Shown here piece after piece: positions 38,986-64,000 of a stretch of 64,000 nucleotides of DNA. A program made the translations under genes and the position numbers. The DNA is from Ascidia mentula (Eukaryota > Chordata > Ascidiacea > Phlebobranchia > Ascidiidae). Where the stretch lies: positions 2,361,001 through 2,425,000 of the forward strand of contig OX387197.1 in NCBI GenBank assembly GCA_947561715.1, given 5' to 3'. The stretch's first letter is position 1. Each line of letters begins with the position of its first letter. The notes under the pieces were generated by a model that had not been told where the DNA came from, ran no database searches, and saw only the letters and a list, made by a program, of their open reading frames with translations.

Positions 38986-39081
38986 CTGAGAATAAATAGA
39001 CTGGCCCATACTGTTGAAAACATTGACATATTTTATTTATTCAATGTTATCAACAGTATGGGCCGGTCTCTTTATTTTCAG
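38986..39081. repeat. 41-bp-arm inverted repeat (MITE-like hairpin)
   Basis: The arms are 38986-39026 and 39041-39081, sharing GGCCCATACTGTTGA and an AATAAA/AGA-rich outer end with a few mismatches. The loop is 14 bp. This could be a solo MITE or a small hairpin RNA source. Confidence 0.75.
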
Positions 39082-41883
39082 AATTATGAGTAAATCCGTT
39101 GATAGTTTTCCAAAGCTAAACATGATTTTGGAAACTTTCATTGCATTGTGAATGGTTCAAGATACAATCGGAAAAAAATCTTGAATCTGAATTTCGTGTA
39201 CACTTTCTTTATTGGTCATGTTGGTTGTTGCAATCACCCAGAACGGACTTTGCATATTATTTGTGATAAATACCTCCAGCTACTGTTAGTTGTTCGGCGT
39301 CAATGTCATTTGTAAAGACCGACATTTGTCATTTGTAAAGCCCTATTTCGACTTCTCAACATGCCACTCATACAAAACTGCTGCATTTTAACATTTACAT
39401 ACCAAAAAGACCACTTTACCTAAACGTACCGGGACAGGATTTAAACATTTTGAAAACGTAGGAAATAAAACTAAACTCTACGTTTAATTGTGCCAGAAAA
39501 ACAGATTATTTAAAAAAGCATTATGCCTGTCAGCAACAGCCAAACAACAGTTGAAAATGTCATTTGTTTGTTCAAACACAAGAAACTTTTGTACATCCTT
39601 TCCTATCAGCTCTGCTGGGAACTACGAATTGACATTGGATAACATTTCAACCCATTGATAATGCACACTGTTCTACTCACAGCCTGACAACAAAAATCGC
39701 GTGTGTGACGTGACAATACACGCTTTAATCAGTTTAGAATCAGCCCCGCGGGGCCAAAGTTAAAGCCTGTGGAAGCCTCCCGGACAAACCAGTTCCAAAC
39801 GTTTTTCCCGATCTTGCCACAAGATTGTCGAGCACATTGCTTGTTCTAGCTTTGTTACAAAACAATTCTACAGCATTGTTTGTTTGTTATATTGATTGTC
39901 TGCGATTGTGTAAGTTGAAGATGTCATCTCCTTATTAGCGAAGGTGAGAGCGCAAGCGCAGCAACTAGACTTAGCTGTTATCAATCACCCATCTAGCCTC
40001 GGCATTTTATTTTTACTGAAATAAATGTCTGGGAAACCCATTCAAAACGACATTTTAAACAATTCTTCATCATAAAAGTCCACGCATAAAGCTTGGCCCG
40101 CTCAACATGTACACAGCTTATCTAACATCAGATTAATCGCTAAATCTAACCGCATGCTTTCTTCTGGTGCCTCTCGGCCTAACTGCGCCAGCCCAGGTTA
40201 GTCATCAATAAAAATACCTTACAATAACAACAGCAGTTACTTTTTCAATAGATACGCAAATGCAAATGGCATTTAGAAAAAAGATTAGCTGATTGGAAAC
40301 ATCCAAATCCATCTCATGTGTAATACAACATCATATCCGAGATTTTCAAAGCAATATCTGTCGAATATGCTCTAATACTACCAGTCGACTATATTATCAT
40401 TATGAAGCTGCTCCTGAGTCACTTGTAAAACTTAAGTGTATGGTTTTGCAAAGAAAGTTCACCCAAAAAACAGAACAACTTATACCATTGAGCAGTCATA
40501 ACTTTGATTTCCGACAAGTAGTGATTGTTTAAAAAACCTCTGTTCGCGACACATTATCATGCTGAGGTTACAAAAGCAACTGCGCTTATTTTGGTTAAAT
40601 TTTTTTAAATCGAACCATAGCCTATATTGCTTTTCAGAAGGTACAGCACATAAACCACAATGTCTCCAATTTCCACAAGGCCGCATACGATTTACCGAAA
40701 GATCAAAATTGTTATTTTAAGGACAGGGTAAGACCTTTATCAGATCAATGCACAAAAATCAACACACGCGGTGACTAAGAGATTCACCATTGTCACGTCA
40801 CCACACATACTATTATTATTATCATCGAGTGTGACGTCACACTGGTTTCTTTCTTGATGTGCGAGCTTACTTTTGTGTGATTTTAGGGATTATAATGAAG
40901 GAAATGATTTCCTGTGGTGTTGTGGGCGATGTCGTATGAATCAACAGCTGGTGCTTGTATTGGATGTTTGATGAATGTTTTGAAAGCCCAGGGTAGAAAA
41001 AAACTCGTATCTCATGGCACTTTATCTGTACTCAAAATAAAGCTTCTGTCTTATTCTGTGAAAATACGTCCTGTGCTGTGAATCCCCTGTTATCTTTTTT
41101 CAAATAGACTTTTTTCTATGGTAGATCACGGCGTGGTCGGGGGGTTTTAAAAGACAACTTTGTGCCAGGAAACTTGTTCTTACACCTTATAAGAAACAGC
41201 CAGTCTGGCCAGAGAATTATACGCCGCTACAACTATACGCGGTCCTTGGGATGCGAGATCAGAGAATGCAGCGTAACAGACAGATGTTTAAAAACAAAGT
41301 CTCGGAAAGCCGTGTAACATATAGGGATACAACCAAACCCTATTTATGTAATTTATGTGATCCACTAATTACTAATAATCGTTGGTACAGACTTGGTTTG
41401 GTTATGGAACATGAAAAAGATTAGCGGTCAGAACATGTTTAGGCTCCGCGTCACATAATAAATATATAGCGCCATCCTGTGGAACAGACATCTTCCATTA
41501 CGCAGTGAGTAGTAACAAGCAAAAGTATTAAAACCAAAATATAATTTACACAATCCACGTTTTCTTCTCTCACTCACACATTTAAAACTTATTGACATAA
41601 AAACCAAACATTCATACTTTGTTCGATCCTCAGTCAAACAATTAAATGCACGATTAACAGCAAATAATCCACCTCAATAAATACACACTTTAGTGCAAGT
41701 GGTTTAAATTTATTCCGAAAAGTGAAAAAAAGTTGGAACAACATATTGTGAAAACAACCCACGACCACATGACCTACATTACAACCCGCATGTTAAAAAT
41801 CACCGAGTTTAAAACCGAACATTGACGTCGGTTTGTCGACTGCAGAACAAACAAACACATCTCAAACAGCAACAACAGTCGCT
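39082..41883. other. Gene-poor stretch
   Basis: No exon with supporting splice sites and recognisable protein was found on either strand. A palindromic TGACGTCAC site lies near 40829-40837. Confidence 0.5.
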
Positions 41884-41980
41884 TCATAAACTGCATGGTT
41901 TGTCAAGATCAAAAGCATGTGTCCAGACATCTGAGGTTGGATCGTAAACTTCAACTGATGTCGGTCGATCGCTGAAATTC
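41884..41980 (-). pseudogene. Kelch-protein terminal exon copy, frameshifted
   Basis: On the minus strand a splice acceptor is followed by a Kelch-motif segment, TSVEVYDPTSDVWTHAFDLDK. It matches the exon at 57363-57477 almost exactly, but a 4-bp difference after DLDK shifts the frame and brings an early stop. The surrounding 41726-42060 is also homologous to 57216-57560. No upstream Kelch exons are next to it; instead a KIF20 exon copy abuts. Confidence 0.65.
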
Positions 41981-42094
41981 CTAAATTCAACCAAAATTAA
42001 TGTGAGTTTTTTAAACACCCTACTCATTGAACTGACAACAACAACACATGTTGTACATATTTGTATTACTGGTATTAAGACGTAAGATTTATAG

Positions 42095-42475
42095 TTAACT
42101 GTTACAAGAATATTGATCTAGTTTGTAGCTCGAGTTCTATTAAAAAGCATTGTTTTTTCAACTAATCATACATAAATGGTTTAATATGTAGCAACGTGGT
42201 TGAATGTGAGACTATTTTGTTTGAATTCTTGTTAGATTCGCAGTCTTTGTGAACTTCATTGAAATATACAACGACTACATTTATGACTTGCTGAAGCCTC
42301 TGCCCAAAGGCAAAAATAAAAAGAGTCCCGCACTTCGGTTGGCTGAGGAAAAATCAATTCCATTTGTGAAAGATTTAAACCAAATACAGGTGTGTACTAA
42401 TTAGTAGGCGGCCAGTAATTAATAGTGTCCAAAATATTTGCAGGCCTAATTTTGGCTTTTACCGTAAAACATTGT
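42095..42475 (+). repeat. Duplicate of KIF20 intron 6-exon 7-intron 7
   Basis: This about 381-bp block is nearly identical to 48936-49317 and includes both intron flanks. Only a handful of substitutions are visible. It is therefore a genomic (not cDNA) duplication and recent. Confidence 0.9.
42236..42389 (+). pseudogene. Orphan copy of KIF20 motor exon 7
   Basis: A 154-bp exon copy with its splice sites intact, reading FAVFVNFIEIYNDYIYDLL. One coding change is seen (AGG to AGT, Arg to Ser, in KKRPAL/KKSPAL). No other kinesin exon is nearby, so it cannot encode a motor on its own. Confidence 0.85.
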
Positions 42476-42510
42476 AAGTTACCCAGCGAATAGTTAACAA
42501 AAAGGACATG

Positions 42511-42755
42511 TCAAACTCTGCTTTTTATGTAATGTATAAAACATTGAGTACAAATATGGCAAATCACAAACAGAAAAACAATAAACAAAAGAAATAGAAG
42601 CATGAAGACATCATCGTACACTGCACTATAACCATAACATTGGGCAGAGCAGCCCTTGTGTGTTGGTAAATTATTATCGAAACTTTCAATGCAAACATGA
42701 CAGCTCAAACCTCGGCGTGCCACGGTAAAGTTGGGCGGGGAGTAAAAGACCCAAC
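42511..42755 (-). CDS. Possible terminal exon of a Cys-rich single-pass membrane protein
   Basis: After an acceptor (TTTGTAG) at 42755 an 81-codon open frame runs to a stop. It has WVFYSPPNFTV, a Cys cluster (CHVCIESF, GCSAQC), then a strongly hydrophobic segment (MLLFLLFIVFLFVICHI) and a short tail. No convincing upstream exon was found. It may be a real last exon, or a chance frame. Confidence 0.3.
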
Positions 42756-44315
42756 CTACAAAGAAAAATAAAATAATAATAATTAGTACATTTGGGAGTC
42801 AGGCATATGGAAGGGTCTGCATGTTACGGAGTCAAGCGAATCCGGTATATCTCGGATTCGTCAATCTCGCGAATCGCACCAAACTGAGAGATATATCGTT
42901 GTAGTAAATCACAATTGGGGCTTGAATGCGAGCGTTTCAGTTTGGGAACGTTTAAGCGCGCAGTATAGGTTTTCGTCTTGCGTCTACAGAAATAGAGTTA
43001 TAGGCGGTTAAACTTGCTGACAACAATTAGCAGCATGTTTTTAATTACTATGCAAAATGGGCGCTTAAAGACTTAAAGAAAGGCACATACATACAAAGAC
43101 TTTTGTATATCCTTACGTCTCTCGCCAGAATCGGCGTTTCGGTTAGCCGTACGTTCTTACTGGTCTCGCTTAACCCTTGCTTGTACGATGGATTTTCAAT
43201 GTTAAGTGTATTCAGGGTCAAGGTCTTCGGCGACTCAGGTTGCGTGTGGATTGTTTTCGGGCATATAGAGAACTGTCGGTTAATTAGCTATCAGCATCAC
43301 ACGGCCGATAGGATACATCGCGGCAGGATGCTGTCTGAAAGGATTCATAATTTTAATGACATCACGCTGCTCATGTCCTGTTTAGGTTGTCTGGGCTGAT
43401 TTCCCATCAATCGCCATGTTTTGTAGGCCACTTGTTTCCTTTTTGCGACTTTCTGGCCATGTAACGATATGTACCAGGGATGGCCAACATGGCAGCAAAT
43501 ACGATCGTCAGGAAAACGTTCGATTTGTGTCGAGTTTCGCAAAGTAGTTTGCGGTTAGTCGCCTTACGATACTGAAATATATTCGCGAAAATCACAACAA
43601 AATCAGACGCGATCGTCCAGTTAAACGATCGGTTGATCAATCTTGATCAACGTATTGTCAAGCCGTGATATGTAACGTACATTCTTTTAATGATGAATCC
43701 AGTTCCAGGGTGACTAACCAGGCGGTTTGGCGTTGCTAAGACATTTGGTAGATGCCTGTTGCATTACTCTCAATTTACAAGACAATTTTCAGTTGGACCA
43801 AATGGAACGTGACAGCGCGTGACTTGGCAAAAGAAGGTTTAACCCTTTAGGCGGACATGTAAAAACGCGCATGGGGAGGTTTACATTCTCACAGGAATCA
43901 ACATCAGAACTCAGCATGGTCATGACCTCTACTGCAAGCAAAAATAACGACGAACGTGATGCAATTTCAATGACATGTTTCTATTCGTAGCAAATGAAAC
44001 TTGTGGTAAAGAGTAAATAGGTTATGTCATGAATCAAATACATAGGATATGTCATAAATGAAGATGAACAAGTACCACGATTAATCTCTTGTAGTGCCCG
44101 CGATTTGTCCCAACTTTGTATTTCGCCTATCTATGACATCTGCAAAACAAGCGAATTGCCTAGCATAGTTTAATCACATCGCGTTTCGTTGAACTTGCGT
44201 GCCGTTTCGTAGACCACCAGGTTTTTGTTCGATGTATTTTACCATTGTATGGAATATTGGTGTTCTGAAACGGAAGCGGACAAATACAAAACAGTAGGTG
44301 CGTTAAGCCGCAATT
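42756..44315. other. Gene-poor stretch
   Basis: Only unsupported short frames, such as minus 43407-43640 with a hydrophobic stretch. A segment around 43200-43265 shares GTATTCAGGGTCAAGGTCTT with 45827-45852, and CAATCCACACGCAA recurs in inverted orientation, so it is part of a dispersed repeat. Confidence 0.4.
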
Positions 44316-44470
44316 GCGCACTTTGATGTTCGTGACATGTAACATTTTGATGTTAGTGCTATACGGCATTTCGATGTTAGTGACATGTAGCATTTCGATG
44401 TTAGTGACATGTAGCATTTTGATGTTAGTGGCATGAGGCGTTTTGATGTTAGTGACATGTAGCATTTCCT
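44316..44470. repeat. 24-bp minisatellite, about six copies
   Basis: Units of the type GATGTTAGTGACATGTAGCA plus TTTC or TTTT follow one another with few changes. Because 24 is a multiple of three, the minus-strand frame shows an eight-residue repeat (MLHVTNIK/E). There is no other sign of coding. Confidence 0.85.
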
Positions 44471-44603
44471 TGAAATGGCACAACAATTGAAAAAAACACG
44501 CAAGTCGTGACAATCTATTACAAGCGAATAATACATAGGATAAATATTTTGCGGCAGTACATCCAACGACAAAAGCACCATACGAATGCATTGCATATCT
44601 TTG

Positions 44604-46100
44604 ACAGGTCAAGCGAGGGACAATAAGAACGCACGATGTACCCAAATTCTTTGTATGTATGTATGTACCTTTCAACCAACGATCAAAACGAGGCATGCAA
44701 AATTTTCGCCGCGGATACAAATAACAACTGATCGAAACACAATTGTTGTTGATCTCGTCGCCTCTCCCGTGATGTCACCGTGAAGGCATTAGGAAACAAT
44801 TCACCAGATAGACGCACAACGACATTACACGAACATGACATTAAATTAATGGTGAACCGCGTGTGCGATTAGTCTCAGCTATCAAAGCTTGAAAATATGT
44901 AAATTTTTGAGTATCCCAGGCACTTGCCCAACACAGAGATAAGGTTAAAGTTGTGACATCACACACAAAATTACGTCACGTAATGTCACTGAGCAAAGAA
45001 ACGCACCATCTCCGTCTTATCGAAGTACGGATTAGTGTCGTTGCTGCTATACCCTTTCGTCTTCCCATAATTAGGGGCAGATAAGCAATGAATTTGAGAC
45101 GTCACAGGGACATATTTTTGTATGATGCAAAACCTTGTCCCGACCTTTGAGGTAACATAATTTGTGGATTCTCCTATGTTTGAAACTATTTGATATCTGC
45201 AATATAAGGTGCCTTCTCCTATGTAAACAATGCATTTTTTTGACACTAGCGTCTTACGTGGCGTCAATTTCGCTACAGCGCAAAAGGTTTACAATTTTTG
45301 GTCGCCGCAGGTTTACGATTTTTGGTCGTAGAACCGAAATACTTTGGAAATATGTTTATTGCGGATGAACCATTAGTTTTACGCAAAGTTGCCATGACCG
45401 TTTTACTTGCACTTTAAGCGCATTCCTGAACATTTACGACCAAGAAACGCAACATAGGTGGAATATCAATTGTCACAGACACAGCTTTAATAATGACACA
45501 TAAAACTCCACGCATTGTTTCAATCCTCTCGTTTTGCTGATGTCATGGGTAAGGTTACAAGATACATAATTAGGACCAATAGCAGGCAATGTAAACGATG
45601 ATTCGTGTACTTTGCAATGCCAAACCGCGTGGCCAACACGTCGTTTTACTATAACTGATCGATGGCGTCTGATTTTGTTTTGTCTTTAACAAGTGAACCG
45701 ATGAATCCATGTTGAGGGCAGCCCGCCGCGATAGACACATCGGTCTTGTGATAGAGATAGCTACTACCTACACGAACATGTCAGTGCCCCATGCCCAAAA
45801 ACAATCCACACGCAATCTGGTCAATGTTGGGGTATTCAGGGTCAAGGTCTTTGATTGCAAATCCAACTTATGGGCAAGGGTCAAGCGAGGGGCAATACGA
45901 ACGCACGATGTACCAAGCCTTTGTACGTTTATGCTTTTCAAGAGCTCTGAAAACGAGGCACTCTGAATTTTCGCTAGCGGATACAATCAACAGCTGATCG
46001 ACAAACAATTGTTTGTTGCTCTCGTCGCATCTCGCGTGATATCATTGTGAAGGCATTGGGAACCGGTTGCATTCAGGAAACAATTCACCAGATAGTTTCA
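44604..46100. repeat. Pair of diverged repeats, possibly tRNA-derived SINE
   Basis: 44604-44813 and 45879-46100 are homologous in direct orientation: both start with TCAAGCGAGGG plus ACGAACGCACGATGTAC and end GGAAACAATTCACCAGATAG. The reverse complement of the start resembles a tRNA T-arm. Divergence is considerable. The interval between the copies shows no supported gene, only a two-copy GGTTTACRATTTTTGGTCG tandem at about 45287-45329. Confidence 0.5.
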
Positions 46101-46616: not shown

Positions 46617-47221
46617 TGCTTCTTTAAGCTAGTCACCATGCTGAAACTGTACAGTAGATCATTCAGCACTATTGTATTGTTGCGTCATAAACACACATTG
46701 GTTTGTTCAAAACATTTCGCTGGAATCAGCCAGCAATCTAGTTTACAGAAACTCTTTGCTTGTGTCAGGAGGTTTAAGGAAGTGTTGTATCTTATAGCAT
46801 GGAAATAGTTCGTTGTTGAGTTTAGACAGTAACGGCCATGCTTTCGTCAAGGGAAAACTTACAAGTAGACAATTAGAGTAACTGTGCGTGCAGTCACCAC
46901 GTTGAAATATGTTATTTCAACCAAAAACAAGATAGGAGAAAAAGTTATATTTGGAACAAAATTGAAGTGAAAAAGATGAAAATGTTGTTGACGAACGTGG
47001 GCCACCATACACATGGATTATGATTTCTATTTTTTTTATTTTCCGTTATGCATGAACGGTCCCAAGGTTGCGCGCCATTTCTTAAATGTCAGCTACTTTT
47101 GTTGCAAAGAACTTCGTTTTTTGCATTTTAATTGATGAATAAGGTCGAATAACTTTGCTGTACTGTATTTAGTGCTCTACCATAACTTCGCATATGCGTG
47201 TCTTATCAAGGACAAATTGTC

Positions 47222-50200
47222 ATGACAGCTGTAGTAAGCAGTCAAGCTTGTGTAGCTGCCTCCACTTCCATGAAAGTTTATTTGAGAGTGAAACCATTCA
47301 CAGAAGAGGATTTGCGCAACAAAGAAAATCAGGTTTGTTCAATTGTGCTTGATTGGTAAACAATGGTGTATGGAAATCTTATGTTAAATTTTCAACAATT
47401 GTACAATTTAAGAGAAAATCAAACTTTACATATCATACACAAAAAATATTTTTTTTTGGCCCATGTGATGCTGGTCAACATCGCCAAAAACATAATACAC
47501 AATTTCCTGTAAAATGTTATTAGGGAGGTTTTTTTCTTTTATAAATTAATGCAAAATTGTTTTTTGCAGTCCATGATCAAAGTTTTACACATTTTTGGCA
47601 GCTGGTCTTAATTTAATCGCTACTAACTAACTTTTGTTATAGAGTAACATTGTTAGAAATGTCAGAACATCATACCCTACCCCCATAACTAAACACTTGC
47701 CTTATTTAGAAATGCTTAGAAATATCAGATGATAAGCATGATGTCATTCTGCGAGCTCCAAAATGCTCCAACATGTTTAAGAACAGCACCCACGGTGTTG
47801 GAAAAACTTGCCACTCGTTTTCATTCACAAACGTCTTCAATCAGACTATAGGGTAAGTTAAGGTTTGTTTCTTTATACTTTCATGGCTTAAATGTAAAAT
47901 ATTTTGGGTTGCACTGGGCCATTTAGAGTGGTTAAGTTTGAATGAAGCAGCTAGTGTCTGGTTTTCAGTTGCACAACACAAATAATAAGCCAGATTTTCT
48001 TCAAAGGTTTATTTTGCACTTAAGACAAACAATTTGTAATGATAAGACCCACAGTGTCAACATCAAAAGCCAATTAATAGTTATGTACTACTTGATCATT
48101 GTAAGTGTTTTATTTATACCCAGACAAAAGGATTTTTTTGATGCAACTGCTTTACCTGTCGTCCAAGACTTCATTGGTGGCCAAAACTCTCTTATTTTTG
48201 CTCATGGTGTCACAAGCTCTGGTATTTATATGTAATATTTATTATTGTTTACATCAATTTGATCTAAACTATGTCATTTTATTGTACATTGTTGCTTAAA
48301 TTTTATGCAAATTTTTTGTTATTTGCTTGTCTCAAACTCCTTTAAATATGTTCTTGCAAAACTTTTGCCAGCTGCAGTAAATAGCCACATGCTTGTATGT
48401 GTTATGGTAGTTCCAAAACATTGTGTCCTTTCAGGCAAAACTTACACTATGCAAGGCAGTCCTGGATATAAGGGCATTATGCTTAGATCTGTTGATGTCA
48501 TTTTCAACAGTATTGGAAACCAAATGGTGCAGGTAATAATATGTTCATCTGTAATTTGTTTTACCAACATGCTGTGTTTCGTGGAAATATTACGATTGTT
48601 TTATTCAACTCTGTTAGAATTCTGATCTACACCTCGAAGCAAACAACAAAGTCGTGATGGTGAGTGACGACCAAAAGCAAAAGTTGCTGGAGGAGAAGAA
48701 AACCTTGATTTAACATTCTGATTACTTAAAACTAAAACTTAAAACTAATCTTCACCGACAGAAGGAAGGCATAGCAAAGAATAGTCTTGAACCACAAACT
48801 GATGCTTCAGTGGATTGTCCGAGTTCAGCTGAAACCTCAGCCAACTTAAGTAAATCATCGAGGTATTGTGCTCTTTGGCTATTTACAAATGAGAAATTTT
48901 TTTTGTGTGTAAGTGCTTTGCAATCCCGTTTTAGAATTAACTATTACAAGAATATTGATCTAGTTTGTAGCTCGAGTTCTATTAAAAAGCATTGTTTTTT
49001 CAACTAATCATACATAAATGATTTAATATGTAGCAACGTGGTTGAATGTGAGACTATTTTGTTTGAATTCTTGTTAGATTCGCAGTCTTTGTGAACTTCA
49101 TTGAAATATACAACGACTACATTTATGACTTGCTGAAGCCTCTGCCCAAAGGCAAAAATAAAAAGAGGCCCGCACTTCGGTTGGCTGAGGAAAAATCAAT
49201 TCCATTTGTGAAAGATTTAAACCAAATACAGGTGTGTACTAATTAGTAGGCGGCCAGTAATTAATACTGTCCAATAAATTTGCAGGCTTAGTTTTGGCTT
49301 TTACCGTAAAACATTTGGTTTTAATATTACATGCAATGGCATGATAGGCAGGATCGCCCCACTGCGCAGGTCCTTGCTTGGCGATCACAGCTATCGTATC
49401 GCGATCATGAGGTTTTTAGGCTTGGCAGCCCAGGCAATGCAGCCTAGCTGGATCAGACACTTTTTCCTGACAAGTCGGAGCGAGATTTGAAAAATCAAGC
49501 TCCCAGTGAGGTTTGAACTCACGACCCTGGGCTAACCAGGCCCAACGCTCTACCAACTGAGCTACAGGAGCTCAGTGGTTTCACGGGGTATACTGTGGCC
49601 AAGGTACACTGGTGCGCAAGCGCACAACTTGCCAGGCAAACTTCACATATACGTAGGGGATCTCTACCACCGTATCCGATAACGCAGTAATATTACATGC
49701 AATGGCATAATAGGCAGGATCGCCCCACATTTTGTTTTATTGTGTTTTGTAAAGGTGACATCACGCGAAGAGGTTTTTAAACTGCTCGCAGTGGCACGAA
49801 ACCACCTGCACATGGCTGAGACCAAATTAAATCACAACTCAAGCCGAAGGTAAGATTAAAACCACTCAACTATGAAGATCTAATCGCTTAACTACGTTTC
49901 TTTCATCTAAAAATATTCAAATTGTATCACAAAATCAATTTTATGTTTATCCCCTAGAAAACAGCTCACTTTAACATTATTTTCTTGCAGCCACAGCATT
50001 TTCACCATAAAAATTGTACGCATAACGGATGTCAACAGGCTTCTATCAGCAAGGGTATCACAGTAAGTTTCCAAGTTACGAACAATTATCCACAGGCTGT
50101 TGAAACTCCCTGTGTATAGAATATCATTCTGTGACCTCGCCGGTTCCGAGCGCTGCGGTAAAACGAACAGCTTTGGTGAAAGATTGAAGGAAGCCAGAAA

Positions 50201-53200
50201 AATTAACAACTCCCTGATGACTTTGGGAAAATGCATTGAAACACTCAGACACAATCAACAGCATGGAAAAGGTATCTTTCTAGTGTTTCTTACATTTTTA
50301 ATAGTCACATATGTCCAACCACTCTCAGCGCAAAAACATAGTTGTTCAAATTGAAATTCCACCCAAAAATTAGGAACCTTGAGATGTTAAGCTTTTATGT
50401 ATGCCTGGGGAACTTGATTTTTCACATTTTTTGTAACTATTGATGTCGTTGTGTTTTTTCTTGGTTATTTAATTGTTAGCGGCTTTCTAAGTTTCGGAGC
50501 ACCTAATCAACACATTTCCCATCATCGTGACCTTAAGTTAATGCGTATAGTATAGATTGTAGGTGTAAATAAGGCGTACAGTTAATTCAGAAGTTTGTTT
50601 GTGTCCACACAAAATACCTGATATAACATCGATACGTTTCCAGCTCAACAGCGACTTGTTCCGTTCCGCGAATCCCGGCTCACACGCCTATTCCAGTGTA
50701 TTCTTATGGGTCACGGTAGAGCGTGTATGATAGTGAACGCCAACCAGTGTGCATCCATGTTTGACGAAAACTTTCATGTTTTGAAGTTTTCGGCCGTTGC
50801 TTCTAAGGTATGTACAGTATCTCGGTGTCCGCGAGTTTGTTGCAACAAAATAAAGGGAAATGAACGTACAAGGCTTTTCCTTCGGACGATATGACCACAC
50901 AAAACACCCAAACTGATTTCACTTATTTAGCTGTGTACTCTCTTGGATATTTTGCACAATGAGTTGCAAAATGTTTGTCCACATTGTATAGTCACGAAAA
51001 CAAAGTTGCCCAAAGTTAATTAACAGGAATAAATGATATCGAAAAATCCGTCTTCAGATAAAGATGGACAAGAACGCGATAAGAAAATCGAAACGAATTT
51101 CCCGGAGAAGTTGTTGGCAACCCCAGGAAACCACTATCAGAGGTGAGAAAACATTCAGACGTTTTGATTTCGATTCAGAAAGCTTCCATAAAAGAGTATT
51201 GTCGTTTTTCTTTTTTTATGACGATTTTTGCCAAGAGGCCAGATTTGTCATTTTAACACAATTCTACTATAAGACCTGTAATTTGTAACCTTTTATTCGC
51301 TAGGTCGGAGTTAAAGTAGAACCATTTTAATAACAGCAATTACAGTGGAAAACCACAATATCCCTTGGGTCGATATATACAAATAATATTCGGGTTAGAT
51401 CATAGACTAGTGTTGATCTATTTATTTCGAGCTACCATCCTTTCTCTGGTGGTTAATAATCACATTTTTAGAGGAGGGAGCGGATTCGCAGAAGGAAGTA
51501 GAGGAGAGTGAGGATGAGTCGGACGATGAAGTGACCCCTTTCAAGAGGGAGAGAGAGGTTAGACTTTGAATTAAACCCGATATGACTTGACTGTTCCAGG
51601 CATTCTATACTACCTCACCATCACCAAACTTTTTAGAACGAACACGAAGAACAGTTACAAAATTTTGAAGACAGAGAACGAAACGCGAAAGATAAAGAGA
51701 AGGAATTTGAAAATCGTCTGAAACGAGTAAGGGATGAAATACATTTAACCACTTATTTCATGGAGTTTTATATTCTTTCACGAACGAGAAGAAGGAACTT
51801 CTGCAAAGCAGAAAGTTGAAGAAGGAGTTGGAGGAGACCAAAGCAAAACTGCACGACGTGCAAGTATAAAAAAAACTTTTTAACTACTGAATTTATGCAA
51901 ACTCCGGCCACTTTCTGAAGCCGTAAAATATGTTTTGAAGGAAAGTCGCGCCGCTTTTATCGTTTTTTAAATTGTATTTTTTCACAGCGTTGTGTTTTTT
52001 TGGTAACTTAAGTGAATTTTACAATAAACAGCGGGAACTCCTGGTGGCAAAAAGCACTCAACAGGACAAGATTATTGATTTGCAAAGTCGCCTGCAGAAA
52101 GTGAGAAGTGTTTTTCGAATCACAAACATTATCTGGTTTACACTTTTATTAAAATTCAAGGATTCGTTAATATGAACAGAATAGCCAATACAGTGCTCGA
52201 AAACTTCATGTAAACGTTTCGATTGTTTCTACAACCATTATCAATACAAATGAAGGCGGATCGGCAAAAATGGTACGGTGAAGTTGGGAGGTTATAGAAA
52301 AAGGCGGGGAATTAAAACTTCACCGTACCATTTTTGCCGATCCGCCTTCATTTGTATTGATAATGGTTGTAGAAACAATCGAAACGTTTACATGAAGTTT
52401 TCGAGCACTGTATTGGCTATTCTGTTCATATTAAAGATCTACAAAACCGTTAGTTATGTTCTCAAGGATTCGTGTTCTTGTTAATGTTGTTGTTGTCAGA
52501 GTCACAGAGAAAAAACACTCATAAAGTTACTAATGATTTCAACATTTTGTGGTAAATTTATAGCGCTTGCACCTAAAAATGGACAATCAGCATCTCTTTG
52601 GTTAACAAGCAGTAAAGAGCTTGCTGTTATTTTTGGTGCAAGCGCAGTAAATTTATCATAAAATATATCAATAAAATTATTTTTCACATTTGAAATTTAC
52701 CGTATTTCGTGCTGTGGCTGGAAGACCGGTGAACATAATGGTTCCACGGCTTTAACATATTTTATTTTACGCAATCATTAAAGAGCTTTGAAATGTTTAT
52801 TCGTATGTTGCGCAACAACACCTTAATTTTTTTGGGATGAAATATATTTAAACACTTGTTTTATGAAGTTTTAATCCGATTTTATGGAAGCATATGAGCC
52901 ACAATAATAAGTGAACTACAGACAGTGCACGCTGTTTTCTGTTTTTGTACCAAATTGCTAAAAATAACTGCGTTTCGTCGAATGGTTGCGATTTTGCGTA
53001 TGTGTAACGATTAGGAAGCACTGCTCTATTTGGTTGCACAATTTTATTTGTTTCTGTTGTCTGTTGGGCAATGCACTAACACTAGTGTATTAATTGCTAG
53101 AACGTTACGTATTTACATGTGGTTCTTTACAGCGCAAATTTCAAATATTTTATTTGTGTCCCTCGAATGTAGCCGAAAGTTTGTTTATGATTTTGCGACA

Positions 53201-54929: not shown

Positions 54930-55219
54930 TGCTTTAGTGCAGTGGTTCCCAAAGTGGGCGCCAGCGCCCCCCTAGGGATGTTTGCAATCGTACGGGGGGC
55001 GCTGGAGACCAAATGGGCGATTGGGGGGCGCTAGGAAATAAATGACCGATTGGTGGGCGCTTTGGTGACAAGGCAATTTTTCTTTTATAGCCTAAGTCAG
55101 TGTTTCCCAACCTGTGGTACACGACCGCATTCCAGGTGGTACGCGAGCACCTTTCTGTAAGACTAATGTATGTGGTGGGCGGGCGGCACAGAAAAAAAGT
55201 TTGAGAAACACTGCTTTAG
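54930..55219. mobile_element. Composite of hAT-like elements
   Basis: TGCTTTAG flanks the block at 54930-54937 and 55212-55219. It starts CAGTGGTTCCCAAAG (54940). A second hAT-like start, CAGTGTTTCCCAACCTG, lies near 55098, and the block ends TTTGAGAAACACTG. The interior has GGGGGGCGC runs. This looks like two related elements nested or fused. No transposase. Confidence 0.65.
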
Positions 55220-55451
55220 ATTCATCGATGAATGGCTGAATTGGCCTCATTTGCTACCAGATGGACATTGGTCCTGTTGCACCGCAATCTCTGCACCCCC
55301 TTTTCGTTGGGTTTGTGTCCACTACCCACCTAATAATTTGGTGCGGAATCTTGGTCGGTTACATAACAGATTGAATTTTTCTCTACACATGTTTGGACAA
55401 CAATATTTTGTCGGGGACCACAGGAGTTATTTAATCCAGCGGGCAAGTGTT

Positions 55452-56757
55452 AGTAACCCCGTTTACATGACGGTTTAAGACGGCTTCGAAGCTTACTCGC
55501 CGATCCGACTCTCTCGTTTTCGGCGAAGAGAAAAAGGCAAGCGTCTTAAGCCGTCTCGGCCTTCGATCTAACGCGGAGAGTGGTTTACGGGACAGCTTAA
55601 GCGATTAAGTCAGCTTAAACCCAGTTGCGACAAGTGCCGCGAAGAAGTTAGGATTAGGTGATTTGTTTATGAGGTTGTGCGTTGAGGGTTTGCTGTTTAC
55701 AATAAACCTTAAAAGTAATAAACTAGTTCTAGTACAACTACGTGAGTATGCTGTATGCTGCAGGGGCGAGAAGGATGTGCTTACTGGAGTTAATTTTGAT
55801 AAATACTGCGCAAGTGTTAAATGAATTGTACAAGCATCAAGATACAAAAAAGCAACATTCGTTTTGAGGACCAAAGTTGCATTTTGGAGACCTGAAGGAA
55901 ACAAATGCATTGCAGGAATGCTGACACTTGCTGGAAAGAAGAATGCACTTGTGTAAACTGTTTTCATTTGCTGCTGGATGTGCTATAATATAACAAGTCA
56001 ATGCAAACTGGTTGTTTATTCATATTTAGGCTACTGCATCTTATTTATGCAAGGATTATGTGAACAACAATCAACCATAAAACACAAAAGCAGGCTTATG
56101 TAAACCTTTTCTGTTCGTCAAAAAAAAAAGAAAATATGACAAGAATGCCATGACACAAGTTTATGTTATGTAACTATCACATCTTCTGTATATTTGTTTC
56201 AAATTAATTAACATTGGGCTGGTATGAAACATTCCATTCAGTCTTTTCTGACACTCAATTGTACATGGGATCACGGGATTAGACAGCTTCTGGAAAGGAT
56301 CCTGTGAAGAAGGACAGAGATAATTAATACTACTAAACATGAAATTTTCACTTGAATACTCTTACCATGGTGTTGTTGTGAACACATTCCAGGAAAATGC
56401 AGCCTTTTAGTTTAATCAGAAATTAAAAAATATGGGTTGCAGCAGGCTTTCTAGTTAAATCATCTATTATATCTGGCAAAGTAAACTCACATTATAATCA
56501 AGGACCAATTTACAGCAAGCATTTGCGTAAACTAACTGCCAATAACTTTTCTCTGCATGCTTAGATTAGAAATATTGATAATTTATTTAGTACAGAGTCT
56601 GAATTTACAGCCTGTCAGCCCGAGACAGCTTAACTTAAGCTGACTTAAAAGCCCCATGTAAATTCGTCGTTTTCGCGCGTCGAATTTGAAAATCACGTGA
56701 CCCGGTCACGAGTCGACTTGATGCTCAAGTCGACTTGGCCATGTAAACAGGGTTACT
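55452..56757. mobile_element. 1.3-kb DNA element with 18-bp terminal inverted repeats
   Basis: The left end AGTAACCCCGTTTACATG and the right end CATGTAAACAGGGTTACT match as inverted repeats (17 of 18). Subterminal GTCGACTT and TTAAGCTGACTTAA palindromes occur. The longest interior frame (minus, 55605-55967) has no recognisable transposase. I could not find a clear target duplication, so the family is open. Confidence 0.5.
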
Positions 56758-57362
56758 GTGAAAAATCTTGATTTCACATATATACGGATTTGTTAAGATG
56801 GACAACCAAAAAATGGGTTTAATAGTGAATTGAGGGGACCTCATTGTTCGTTTGTGCATCGAAGCGTGCATTGCCTTTTTCTTATGCCGCGTGGTATCCG
56901 CTTTATTAAACGTGTGTTTTGTGTTGCTCGCTCTTCCTATACCGCACAGCTGGCTGAATAAAACATCAACCGCTTTAAAATAGTCCTTTGTAATAAAAAA
57001 CAATGCCTCTACATACAGAACAGAAATATATTTACAAACTTCTGTATCGCTGTCCGAAATACAATTGGCGGCCAACGAAAATTAAATCGCGGGTTAATTT
57101 TGTAGCAAGTTGTCACAACGGAACAATTACATTAACGTTGTTCAAAGGCAAGACAATTAATTTTTCAAAAAAATATCCCACTCACTCAACATATATTTCC
57201 GTGGTTGCATGTTTATGCAAAAAAGTAAATAGAGTTGCAACAATATATTACGAAAACCACCCATGACCACATGACCTACATTACAACCCACATGTCAAAA
57301 TCACTGAGTTTAAAACCAAACATGGACGTCGGTTTGTCGACTGCAGAACAAACAAACACATA

Positions 57363-57477
57363 TTAAACAGCAACAACAGTCGCATCATAAACTCGTTTGT
57401 CAAGATCAAAAGCATGTGTCCAGACATCTGAGGTTGGATCGTAAACTTCAACTGATGTCAGGGGATTGCCCAAATCC
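57363..57477 (-). CDS. Terminal exon of a Kelch-repeat protein (stranded)
   Basis: An acceptor at 57477 is followed by DLGNPLTSVEVYDPTSDVWT, HAFDLDKRVYDATVVAV and a stop: a last Kelch blade (VEVYDP...W). It is in the same phase as the copy at 41884-41980 and without its frameshift. Upstream exons on the minus strand would have to lie at higher coordinates, where satellite DNA begins within 500 bp. It is therefore a fragment, or the gene continues beyond the satellites. The flanks 56758-57362 and 57478-57952 show no other gene. The latter has scattered CGAAAC oligomers that grade into the satellite. Confidence 0.55.
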
Positions 57478-57952
57478 CTAAATACACCCAAAATTAATGT
57501 GAGTTTAGTTAAACATCAGCCAAATTTTCCTCACTTAACTGACAACAACACTCATGTTCTGCATATTTTTATCAGTGATATTGCGATGGATATGGTGGCC
57601 TATACATTTTTCCATAAGAAAAAAAATTTCGTTTCGAATTTCGTTTTCCCGAAACAAATTTTGTTTTGAAATAATCAATTTTGTTTCCAAAAGCAAAATT
57701 CGAAACAGAGTTCAAAACGAATTTCAGAAAAGGTGGTTATGGTCAAAAACGAAATTCGAAACAAATTTCTTGGAAAAACTTTTTTTTGAAGTGAATATCG
57801 CTTGATGGAAACAAAGAGCTGATATATAATATAATGACGTCAGTATTCAAAAACATATTTTTGTAAAAAATTTTGTTAACAAATCAAAGACCGTTTTGAA
57901 ATGCCCAAATTTTGAACTATCAAAAATGAAACTGTGAAAACAAAATTTGTTT

Positions 57953-60874
57953 TCGAAACAAAATTCGTTTACAAATGCCTTTAGTACGTTACTCACTATG
58001 TTGTAAACAGTGGGAAACAAATTATGTTTTCGAAACAAAATTCGTTTACAAATGCCTTTGGATCGTTAGTATCTATGTTGCCCATGGCGGAAAACAAAAT
58101 TCGTTTCCGAAACAAAATGCGTTTACAAATGCCTTTGGATCGTTACTATCTATGTTGCCCATAGCGGAAACAAAATTTGTTTTCGAAACAAAATTCGTTT
58201 ACAAATGCCTTTGGATCGTTACTATCTATGTTGCCCATTGCAGAAAACAAAATTTGTTTTCGAAACAAAATTCGTTAACAAATGCCTTTGGATAGTTACT
58301 ATCTATGTTGCGCATAGCGGGAAACAAAATTCGTTTTCGGAACAAAATTCGTTTACAAATGCCTTTGGTTCGTTACTCACCATGATGTCTATACCGGGAA
58401 ACAAAAATTCGTTTTCGAAACAAAATTCGTTTACAAACGCCTTTGGATCGTTACTATCTATGTATGCCCATAGCGGGAAACAAAATTTGTTTTCGAAACA
58501 AAATTCGTTTACAAATGCCTTTGGATCGTTACTATCTATGTTGCCCATAGCGGGAAACAAAATTCGTTTTCGAAACAAAATTCGTTTACAAATGCCTTTG
58601 GATAGTTACTATCTATGTTGCCCATAGCGGGAAACAAAATTCGTTTTCGAAACAAAATTCGTTTACAAATGCCTTTGGATCGTTACTATCTATGTTGCCC
58701 ATATCGGGAAACAAAATTCGTTTTCGAAACAAAATTCGTTTACAAATGCCTTTGTATCGTTACTATCTATGTTGCCCATAGCGGGAAACAAAATTTGTTT
58801 TCGAAACAAAATTCGTTTACAAATGCCTTTGGATCGTTACTATCTATGTTGCCCATAACGGGAAACAAAATTCGTTTTCGAAACAAAATTCGTTTACAAA
58901 TGCCTTTGTATCGTTACTATCTATGTTGCCCATAGCGGGAAACAAAATTCGTTTACAAATGCCTTTGGATCGTTACTATCTATGTTGCCCATAGCAGGAA
59001 ACAAAATTTGTTTTCGAAACAAAATTCGTTTACAAATGCCTTTGGATCGTTACTATCTATGTTGCTCATAGCGGGAAACAAAGTTCGTTTTCGAAACAAA
59101 ATTCGTTTACAAATGCCTTTGGATCGTTACTATCTATGTTGCCCATAGCAGGAAACATCATTTGTTTTCGAAACAAAATTCGTTTACAAATGCTTTTGGA
59201 TCGTTTCTATCTATGTTGTCCATAGCGGGAAACAAAATTCGTTTTCGAAACAAAAATCGTTTACAAATGCCTTTGGATCGTTTCTATCTATGTTGCCCAT
59301 AGCGGGAAACAAAATTTGTTTTCGAAACAAAATTCGTTTACAAATGCCTTTGGATCGTTACTATCTATGTTGCCCATAGCGGGAAACAAAATTCGTTTTC
59401 GAAACAAAATTCGTTTACAAATGCCTTTGGATCGTTACTATCTATGTTGCCCATAACGGGAAACAAAATTCGTTTACAAATGCCTTTGGATCGTTACTAT
59501 CTTTGTTGGCCATAGCAGGAAACAAAATTTGTTTTCGAAACAAAATTCGTTTACAAATGCCTTTGGATCGTTACTATCTATGTTGCCCATAGCGGAAACA
59601 AAATTCGTTTTCGAAACAAAATTCGTTTACAAATGCCTTTGGATCGTTACTATCTATGTTGCCCATAGCGGGAAACAAAATTCGTTTTCGAAACAAAATT
59701 CGTTCACAAATGCCTTTGGATCGTTACTATCTATGTTGCCCATAGCGGAAACAAAATTCGTTTTCGAAACAAAATTCGTTTACAAATGCCTTTGGATCGT
59801 TACTATCTATGTTGCCCATAGCGGGAAACAAAATTCGTTTTCGAAACAAAATTCGTTTACAAATGCCTTTGGATCGTTACTATCTATGTTGCCCATAGCG
59901 GAAACAAAATTCGTTTTCGAAACAAAATTCGTTTACAAATGCCTTTGGATCGTTACTATCTATGTTGCCCATAGCGGAAACAAAATTCGTTTTCGAAACA
60001 AAATTCGTTTACAAATGCCTTTGGATCGTTACTATCTATGTTGCCCATAGCAGGAACGATAATTTGTTTTCGAAACAAAATTCGTTTACAAATGCCTTTG
60101 GTTCGTTACTCACCATGATGTCTATACCGGGAAACAAAAATTCGTTTTCGAAATTAATTTCGTTTTCAAATGCTTTGGTTCGTTACTTACCATGTTGTAC
60201 ATAGTGGGAAACATAATTTGTTTTCGAAACAAAATTCGTTTACTAATGCCTTTGGATCGTTACTATCTATGTTGCCCATAGCGGGAAACAAAATTCGTTT
60301 ACGAAACAAAATGCGTTTACAAATGCCTTTGGATCGTTACTCTCTCTGTTGCCCATAGCGGAAACAAAATTTGTTTTCGAAACAAAATTCGTTTACAAAT
60401 GCCTTTGGATCGTTACTATCTATGTTGCCCATAGCAGGAAACAAAATTTGTTTTCGAAACAAAATTCGTTTACAAATGCCTTTGGATCGTTACTATCTAT
60501 GTTGCCCATAGAGGGAAACAAAATTTGTTTTCGAAACAAAATTCGTTTACAAATGCCTTTGTATCGTTACTATCTATGTTGCCCATAGCGGGAAACAAAA
60601 TTCGTTTTCGAAACAAAATTCGTTTACAAATGCCTTTGGATCGTTACTATCTATGTTGCCCATAGCGGGAAACAAAATTCGTTTTCGAAACAAAATTCGT
60701 TTACAAGTGCCTTTGGATCGTTGCTATCTATGTTGCCCATAGCGGGAAACAAAATTCGTTTTCGAAACAAAATTCGTTTACAAATGCCTTTGGATCGCTT
60801 CTATCTATGTTGCCCATAGCGGGAAACAAAATTCGTTTTCGAAACAAAATTCGTTTACAAATGCCTTTGGATCG
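57953..60874. repeat. 77-bp satellite array, about 38 copies
   Basis: The consensus carries TTCGTTTTCGAAACAAAA, then TTCGTTTACAAATGCCTTTG, then GATCGTTACTATCTATGTTG and CCCATAGCGGGAAACAAAA. Each unit has a TTTTCGAAA palindrome. Some units lack about 20 bp through recombination between the two AAACAAAATTCG blocks, and a few carry an extra or missing base. Long open frames across it reflect unit periodicity only. Confidence 0.95.
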
Positions 60875-63800
60875 AAATTTTGCACACAAATACTAGATGC
60901 CAGTACAAAACGAGCAGTGAAAACCAAATTTGCCTTTGTCCTTTAGTTTTTTATTCGCGACCGAAAACGCATATTTGACTCTATGGTGGCTAAGGTTCGT
61001 CGAAATTAACACAAATTGACAGTTGCCTGCCTGCAATTTGAACATTTTTATATCAAGCGACTTGAAATTTTGAACACAAATACTAGATGCCAGTGCAAAA
61101 CGAGCAGTGAAAACCAAATTGGCCTATGTCCTTTAGTTTTTTATTCGCGACCGAAAACGCATGTTTGACTCTATGGTGGCTAAGGTTCGTCGAAATTAAC
61201 TCAAATTGACAGTTGCCCGCTTGCAATTTGAACATTTTTATATCAAGCGACTTGAAATTATGCACACAAATACTACATGCCAGTACAAAACGAGCAGTGA
61301 AAACCAAATTGGCCTATGTCCTTTAGTTTTTTATTCGCGACCGAAAACGCATGTTTGACACTATGGTGGCTAAGGATCGGCGAAATTAACACAAATTGAC
61401 AGTTGCCCGCTTGTAATTTGAACATTTTTATATCAAGCGACTTGAAATTTTGCACACAAATACTAGATGCCAGTGCAAAACGAACAAGAAAAACCAAATT
61501 GGCCTATGTCTTTTAGTTTTTTATTCGCTACCGAAAACGCATGTTTGACACTATGGTGGCTAAGGTTCGTCGAAATTTACTCAAATTGAAAGTTGCCCGC
61601 CTGTAATTTGAACATTTTTATATCAAGCGACTTGAAATTTTGCACAGAAATACTAGATGCCAGTACAAAACGAACAGTGAAAACCAAATTAGCCTATGTC
61701 ATTTAGTTTTTTATTATCGACCGAAAACGCATGTTTGGCGCTATGGTGGCTATACGGTTCGGCGAAATTAACTCAAATTGACAGTTGCCCGCCTGCAATT
61801 TGAACATTTTTATATCAAGCGACTTGAAATTTTGCACACAAATACTAGATGCCAGTGCAAAACGAACAAGAAAAACCAAATTGGCCTATGTCTTTTAGTT
61901 TTATATTCGTGACCGAAAACGCATGTTTGACACTATGGTGGCTAAGGTTCGGCGAAATTTACTCAAATTGACAGTTGCCCGCTTGCAATTTGAACATTTT
62001 TATATCAAGCGACTTGAAATTTTGCACACAAATACTAGATGCCAGTACAAAACGAGCAGAGCAAACCAAATTGGCCTATATCCTTTAGTTTTTTATTCGC
62101 GACCGAAAACGCATGTTTGGCACTATGGTTGCCAAGGATCGGCGAAATTAACTCAAATTGAGAGTTGCCCGCCTGCAATTTGAACATTTTTATATCAAGC
62201 GACTTGAAATTTTGCACATAAATGCTAGATGCCAGTGCAAAACGAGCAGTGAAAACCAAATTGGCCTATGTCCTTTAGCTTTTTATTCGCGACCGAAAAC
62301 GCATGTTTGACTCTATGGTGGCAAAGGTTCGTCGAATTTAACTCAAATTGACAGTTGCCCGCTTGTAATTTGAACATTTTTATATCAAGCGACTTGAAAT
62401 TTTGCACACAAATACTAGATGCCAGTACAAAACGAGCAGTGAAAACCAAATTGGCCTATGTCCTTTAGTTTTTTATTCGTGACCGAAAACGCATGTTTGG
62501 CACTATGGTTGCCAAGGATCGGCGAAATTAACACAAATTGACAGTTGCCCGCCTGCAATTTGAACATTTCTATATCAAGCGACTTGAAATTTTGCACACA
62601 AATACTAGATGCCAGTACAAAACGAGCAGTGAAAACCAAATTGGCCTATGTCCTTTAGCTTTTTATTCGCGACCGAAAACGCATGTTTGACTCTATGGTG
62701 GCAAAGGTTCGTCGAATTTAACTCAAATTGACAGTTGCCCGCTTGTAATTTGAACATTTTTATATCAAGCGACTTGAAATTTTGCACACAAATACTAGAT
62801 GCCAGTAAAAAACAAGCAGTGAAAACCAAATTGGCCTATGTCCTTTAGCTTTTTATTCGCGACCGAAAACGCATGTTTGACTCTATGGTGGCTAAGGTTC
62901 GTCGAATTTAACTCAAATTGACAGTTGCCCGCTTGTAATTTGAACATTTTTATATCAAGCGACTTGAAATTTTGCACATAAATACTAGATGCCAGTACAA
63001 AACGAGCAGTGAAAACCAAATTGGCCTATGTCCTTTAGTTTTTTATTCGCGACCGAAAACGCATGTTTGACACTATGGTGGCTAAGGTTCGTCGAAATTA
63101 ACTCAAATTGACAGTTGCCCGCTTGCAATTTGAACATTTTTATATCAAGCGACTTGAAATTTTGCACACAAATACTAGATGCCAGTACAAAACGAGCAGA
63201 GCAAACCAAATTGGCCTATGTCCTTTAGTTTTTTATTCGCGACCGAAAACGCATGTTTGGCACTATGGTTGCCAAGGATCGGCGAAATTAACTCAAATTG
63301 AGAGTTGCCCGCCTGCAATTGGAACATTTTTATATCAAGCGACTTGAAATTTTGCACATAAATACTAGATGCCAGTGCAAAACGAGCAGTGAAAACCAAA
63401 TTGGCCTATGTCCTTTAGCTTTTTATTCGCGACCGAAAACCCATGTTTGACTCTATGGTGGCTAAGGTTCGTCGAATTTAACTCAAATTGACAGTTGCCT
63501 GCTTGTAATTTGAACATTTTTATATCAAGCGACTTGAAATTTTGCACACAAATACTAGATGCCAGTGCAAAACGAACAAGAAAAACCAAATTGGCCTATG
63601 TCTTTTAGTTTTTTATTCGCGACCGAAAACGCATGTTTGACACTATGGTGGCTAAGGTTCGTCGAAATGAACACAAATTGAGAGTTGCCCGCTTGTAATT
63701 TGAACATTTTTATATCAAGCGACTTGAAATTTTGCACACGAATACTAGATGCCAGTACAAAACGAACAAGAAAAACCAAATTGGCCTATGTCTTTTAGTT

Positions 63801-64000
63801 TTATATTCGTGACCGAAAACGCATGTTTGACACTATGGTGGCTAAGGTTCGGCGAAATTTACTCAAATTGACAGTTGCCCGCTTGCAATTTGAACATTTT
63901 TATATCAAGCGACTTGAAATTTTGCACACAAATACTAGATGCCAGTACAAAACGAGCAGTGAAAACCAAATTGGCCTATATCCTTTAGTTTTTTATTCGC
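60875..64000. repeat. 190-bp satellite array, more than 16 copies, runs off window
   Basis: Units of 190 bp start near TTTTGCACACAAATACTAGA and include ACCAAATTGGCCTATGTC, TTTTTTATTCGCGACCGAA and ATTTTTATATCAAGCGACTT. Spacing is constant. Variants such as AACAAGAAAAACC, or GGCACTATGGTTGCCAAGG, recur at multiples of 190 bp, which indicates higher-order structure. Short minus-strand frames of 74 codons recur with the unit and are not taken as genes. Confidence 0.96.

Follow-up and report, generated by a model that had tools for sequence, protein, structure and literature searches.

A copied KIF20 exon beside a Kelch gene remnant in Ascidia mentula, most likely placed there by an ordinary repair patch

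Introduction

How did an exon of a kinesin motor gene come to lie within the remains of a Kelch-repeat gene? The question is raised by a 64,000-nucleotide stretch of the Ascidia mentula genome (hereafter the window, C1:2361001-2425000), which is part of a 27.9-Mb contig in a 196-Mb assembly of 79 contigs. An initial annotation described the fusion of a Kelch terminal exon with a KIF20 motor exon, each traced to another place in the window, and proposed template switching, capture by a transposon or reinsertion of circular DNA as its cause. Our analysis indicates a real chimera that is most likely an ordinary repair patch.

Results

Composition of the chimera

Comparison of the window with itself (BLASTN and local alignment) matches 42088-42473 with 48930-49315 over 386 gapless bp at 97.4% identity (E = 0), and 41709-42076 with 57212-57582 at 84.4% identity with 17 gap positions (E = 4e-113). 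A chance origin is excluded for both. The two matches first reported, introns included, are thus borne out, and the borders given for them are good to about 20 bp. The halves are indeed fused, but the spacing of about 35 bp described between them is too large, as the real gap is smaller and carries no filler. The description of two sources was also incomplete, because it overlooked a third fused piece at 42474-42710 and a dispersed repeat that starts at about 42710-42714.

A genome search that scored the best 40 of 153 candidates returned the window locus once, two KIF matches and 37 Kelch-half matches, all 37 of which are on C1. With the best 40 candidates scored in each search, the KIF segment is found in three places and adjoins Kelch sequence only in this one; the other two belong to copies of the KIF20 gene whose alignment spans about 4.6 kb. 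Each half therefore has further copies (at least 37 other places for Kelch and two for KIF), and no further copy of the composite was seen in the host genome among these candidates.

The copied KIF20 segment and its joins

The copied segment (42088..42473, plus strand) comprises an exon at 42237-42389 and flanking intron, and corresponds to the donor segment at 48930..49315 on the same strand, where the exon spans 49079-49231. The AG and GT splice borders of the copied exon are intact. Introns lie within the 97.4% match, and therefore the template was either DNA or unspliced RNA. Both exon copies pass the Pfam cut-off for the kinesin motor domain (PF00225), scoring 30.5 and 30.7 bits against 29.3. 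The copied exon sits upstream of the recognised KIF20 motor exons and beside a frameshifted Kelch exon, and because of this placement it is probably an orphan without function. We rejected the possibility that it is a tandem exon of one long gene, since among the listed open stretches of at least 40-45 residues no other recognised motor exon begins before about 47.2 kb.

Kelch homology extends to 42092 in four copies at 7.74-7.80 Mb (L011, L012, L015 and L020) and KIF homology begins at 42088-42093, so the first junction has no filler. The sequence TTTA fits both sides of this junction, an overlap short enough to arise by chance. The second junction, between the KIF segment and the third piece, likewise has no filler and about 0-3 bp of shared sequence. 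There is also a stretch at this junction where the KIF and Kelch sequences look alike. When both ends of the KIF insert were read by eye, neither an abutting target-site duplication nor poly(A) was seen. GTAAG is present on both sides, and was rejected as a target-site duplication because Kelch homology continues beyond it on the left.

The left Kelch piece and its relatives

The left half of the chimera, piece A (41636..42092, minus strand by alignments and genome search), is a degenerate remnant of the 3′ end of a Kelch-repeat gene, including the end of the last intron, the terminal exon and part of the downstream region. Its frame is shifted just past DLDK and soon reaches a stop (DLDKPCSL), where the same stretch reads DLDKSVYNATVVAV to its stop in the relative L029 and DLDKRVYDATVVAV to its stop in the copy at 57.2 kb. 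The terminal exon of piece A scores 15.9 bits, below the Pfam Kelch_1 cut-off of 20.1, and so it is mainly the DNA similarity to the family that justifies the name Kelch for this piece. In L029, three of five open stretches pass this cut-off, and the terminal exon, at 15.3 bits, falls below it. The 940 bases left of piece A gave one 54-bp match elsewhere and nothing more in a genome search that skipped very common words.

Of 19 copies compared with piece A over aligned columns, five are closer than the 57.2-kb copy (87.6%): L004 at 90.0%, L014 at 89.2%, L005 at 88.2%, and L006 and L019 at 87.9%. The margins are small and no copy is close. Beyond the window locus itself, at least 37 places match this half; the 57.2-kb copy, named initially as the Kelch source, is one of them and ranks sixth, which does not favor it. 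It is probably not the source of this half. At most of ten compared Kelch loci, alignments between units extend for several kilobases.

The 57.2-kb copy belongs to a second isolated Kelch fragment in the window (55161..57590, minus strand, interrupted at 55453-56747), which alignments and the tree show to be related to piece A, though other copies are closer. The two isolated fragments (57590 and 42076-42092) end at nearly the same point of the Kelch unit, about 15 bp apart at most, and in unit L035 an inversion starts near this point. A breakage hot spot there is possible.

The inverted piece and the adjoining repeat

Piece B (42474..42710, plus strand) is a fragment of an upstream intron of a Kelch gene, and alignments place it in inverted orientation relative to piece A. 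It matches an upstream intron of the Kelch units at at least 14 places among the best 40 candidates scored. At 42664/42666 it lacks 107 bp relative to L028, and 106-187 bp relative to L030, L035, L036 and L038. The inversion is evident from the nearest A and B pieces of the fetched Kelch units that hold both, which in 11 of 11 distinct units are oriented to each other in the way opposite to the window's pieces; L034 carries an additional partial A, further off and in the other orientation. As judged from these alignments, the KIF segment sits between two opposed Kelch fragments. No fetched locus has piece A joined to inverted B minus the KIF segment. With no such empty site among these loci, insertion into a pre-existing A/inverted-B junction is a putative step.

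Piece B is adjoined by a dispersed multi-copy repeat (42711..44700, right end approximate) identified in the genome search. Some copies of it elsewhere form inverted pairs that resemble foldback structures, such as C52:3662716-3664550 (minus) with 3664978-3666409 (plus). Element termini on both sides of the composite were not found in a search that skips very common words, and the dispersed repeat is confined to the right side. This search could have missed a short terminus beside the composite if it were very abundant.

Other repetitive features of the window include two tandem arrays, with units of 77 bp (57938-60874) and 190 bp (60874-64000), that meet at 60874 without a spacer. Self-BLASTN also reveals self-complementary stretches at 52164-52437 (274 bp, 89%) and 38986-39081 (96 bp, 85%).

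Relative ages of the pieces

A paralog of the donor gene on contig C2 permits a three-way comparison of the KIF sequences over 381 aligned bases. Four changes are private to the 42-kb copy, three are private to the donor, and two positions differ in all three. Because private changes against C2 are so few, the 42-kb copy must have diverged from the donor lineage recently. Private change in the KIF piece is 4-6 of 381, and the terminal branches are 0.067 for piece A and 0.096 for piece B in a tree with low branch supports around the window pieces. Compared with 4/381 by Fisher test, the Kelch values give p = 4e-5 (A) and 2e-6 (B). If the 42-kb copy is charged with every KIF difference (9/381), the values become p = 0.004 (A) and 3e-4 (B). 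Kelch counts in these tests are branch length times length, and the comparison assumes a neutral clock and a search that reached the nearest Kelch copies.

Thus, the Kelch remnant probably predates the KIF patch, since the Kelch pieces carry more private change. A Kelch donor that was lost from the genome, or was among the unscored candidates, could mimic this age difference. The earlier view that the two halves came from two named places and were joined as a single unit fits poorly with Kelch parts that carry several-fold more private change than the KIF part.

The donor gene and its scars

The donor is a resident KIF20A-like gene recognised by alignment, Pfam and structural relatives (47186..51616, plus strand). 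The left limit is set by the first motor exon recognised and the right one by where the C2 alignment ends, and the gene may extend beyond them. The C2 paralog aligns across 47.0 to 51.6 kb, and the three best relatives of solved structure for its exons are all KIF20A.

Compared with C2, the donor carries a deletion junction at 48930..48938 (plus strand), where BLAST borders leave 7 bp in place of 172 bp. About 170 bp are therefore absent immediately to the left of the copied segment. They include an exon, 75 or 78 bp long depending on the choice of acceptor; the frame is kept either way. The residues before FAVFVNF align weakly with KIF20A, which is compatible with the missing exon being ancestral, as it may be, and is not proof of it.

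The second scar, immediately to the right of the copied segment, is a 407-bp repeat (49322..49728, minus strand) that is absent from the C2 paralog, carries a tRNA-Thr(GGT) at 49497-49572, and is flanked by a near-exact duplication of 9-11 bp as read by eye. The ancestral state of both scars rests on this single paralog. A 366-bp unit with a tRNA-Thr(GGT) gene is present at many places in the genome (at least 131 matching pieces in the best 40 of 3,054 candidates), often in tandem at 366-bp spacing and often in both orientations side by side. Two of three closely read copies (L048 and L050; the third is L049) are flanked, as read by eye, by direct repeats about 12-13 bp long. This arrangement suggests a mobile element built of tRNA-bearing units. 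We dropped the idea that the 407-bp repeat is an element with two fixed ends, because the borders common to its copies are the borders of the query itself. A literature search returned no title that matches tRNA-bearing tandem or foldback elements.

Discussion

Origin of the chimera

The reading that we prefer, to which we assign a probability of roughly 0.6, is a templated insertion of KIF20 sequence into an old Kelch remnant as a patch that repaired a break. The target would have been a degenerate Kelch remnant, kin of the large Kelch cluster on the same chromosome, located upstream of the KIF20 gene at a distance of about 5 kb. This remnant may have suffered a double-strand break or a stalled fork and been repaired with a patch of about 380 bp, taken in the same orientation from the KIF20 gene about 6.8 kb away. 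The patch might have been added by end joining with a templated insert or by template switching during replication, using nearby KIF20 DNA or unspliced RNA as template. The joins would have needed 0-4 bp of matching sequence, and the KIF20 segment would have come to lie between opposed Kelch fragments. Inversion of the Kelch sequence could have accompanied the patch or preceded it. A break patch fits because the donor is retained, microhomology is short, no target duplication is visible and the composite occurs once among the candidates scored. The initial proposal is therefore upheld in that KIF20 sequence was copied with its introns, and in its general class of template switching or patch repair; its other two proposed origins fare poorly, as discussed below.

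A less likely explanation is a single replication event with several template switches (MMBIR or FoSTeS) that passed from Kelch A to the KIF20 segment and on to inverted Kelch B, with Kelch donors that have since been lost or have diverged. Three pieces that differ in origin and orientation lie within 1.1 kb and are joined without filler, as such an event would produce. Moreover, the Kelch locus closest to piece B (L028) is the one that, as L006, is fourth by identity to piece A, which fits one Kelch source. However, the Kelch pieces carry several-fold more private change than the KIF piece, and so this explanation requires Kelch donors that are absent either from the assembly or from among the candidates scored.

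More doubtful still is a capture linked to a transposon, in which the donor was cut when the tRNA repeat inserted and the Kelch remnant took up a KIF20 fragment that had been freed or had arisen by run-off. As read by eye, the right end of the patch lies within a few bases of the flanking duplication of the repeat, and the left end is similarly close to the deletion junction, which has no counterpart in C2. A random patch would not predict ends at donor scars. With fragments of 150-1500 bp placed uniformly in the KIF20 gene, both ends fall near lesions with frequencies of 8e-5, 2e-4 and 6e-4 at tolerances of 4, 8 and 12 bp, respectively. However, the six lesions were listed, and the test drawn up, after the coincidence had been seen, which makes it a lead and not a test. 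The ancestral state of the scars is judged from one paralog, and no result shows that insertion of the tRNA repeat releases a fragment. Transposon capture as first proposed is further weakened because the composite was found once among the best 40 candidates scored per search, no transposon end was seen between the pieces and no abutting target-site duplication was seen. It is similarly doubtful that the copied segment is exactly the KIF20 piece between the two break scars, namely the exon-removing deletion and the tRNA-repeat insertion. If it were, the donor would have been broken at both ends, and a mobile insertion would have led to capture of a freed exon at a nearby break. This would represent a route to exon shuffling that leaves lasting scars in the donor.

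An assembly artefact, in which an alternative haplotype of the KIF20 exon has been misplaced, is very unlikely. The divergence of about 2.4% could fall within the polymorphism of a highly heterozygous animal, but Kelch pieces are fused to the segment on both sides within a few bases, inside a 27.9-Mb contig. Least probable of all is the proposed reinsertion of an extrachromosomal circle, which no result specifically favors and which accords poorly with at least two source loci in two orientations and with searches (best 40 candidates scored in each) that met no permuted order of a single contiguous source.

Significance

The locus shows clearly how an exon can come to lie beside an unrelated gene fragment with its splice borders intact, probably through repair. 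Such transfers are raw material for exon shuffling. If other haplotypes show the same coincidence between patch ends and donor scars, it would connect the insertion of mobile elements with transfers of this kind. So far as the sequence reveals, this appears to be one event with no sign of function.

Comparison with known systems

Gene capture by transposons such as Pack-MULEs and Helitrons places intron-holding gene fragments from different loci side by side. The window likewise has adjacent gene fragments with introns from different loci, but the composite was found once and lacks element ends or target duplications abutting both sides.

FoSTeS involves replication template switching at short shared sequence, and yields multi-piece junctions with inversion. 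Two sources on MMBIR and on templated insertion by polymerase theta describe switches and junctions of the same type (PMC8421209, PMC12426944). The junctions in the window are similarly multi-piece, with short shared sequence and an inversion, although the pieces appear unequal in age.

Class 2 templated sequence insertion polymorphisms in humans, as described in a review, consist of short copied sequence with microhomology and no target-site duplication, and are read as patches of double-strand breaks for which an RNA-derived origin is favored (PMC5110952). The patch in the window could be templated by DNA or by RNA, and is known from one genome. It also differs in that its donor is on the same chromosome, 6.8 kb away, and in that it lies between two opposed fragments of another gene family. 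The joins have the TTTA overlap, which could be chance, at the first junction and about 0-3 bp at the second. Like the human insertions, the insert is a copy of distant sequence whose donor is still in place, and its ends, as read by eye, are free of target-site duplication and poly(A).
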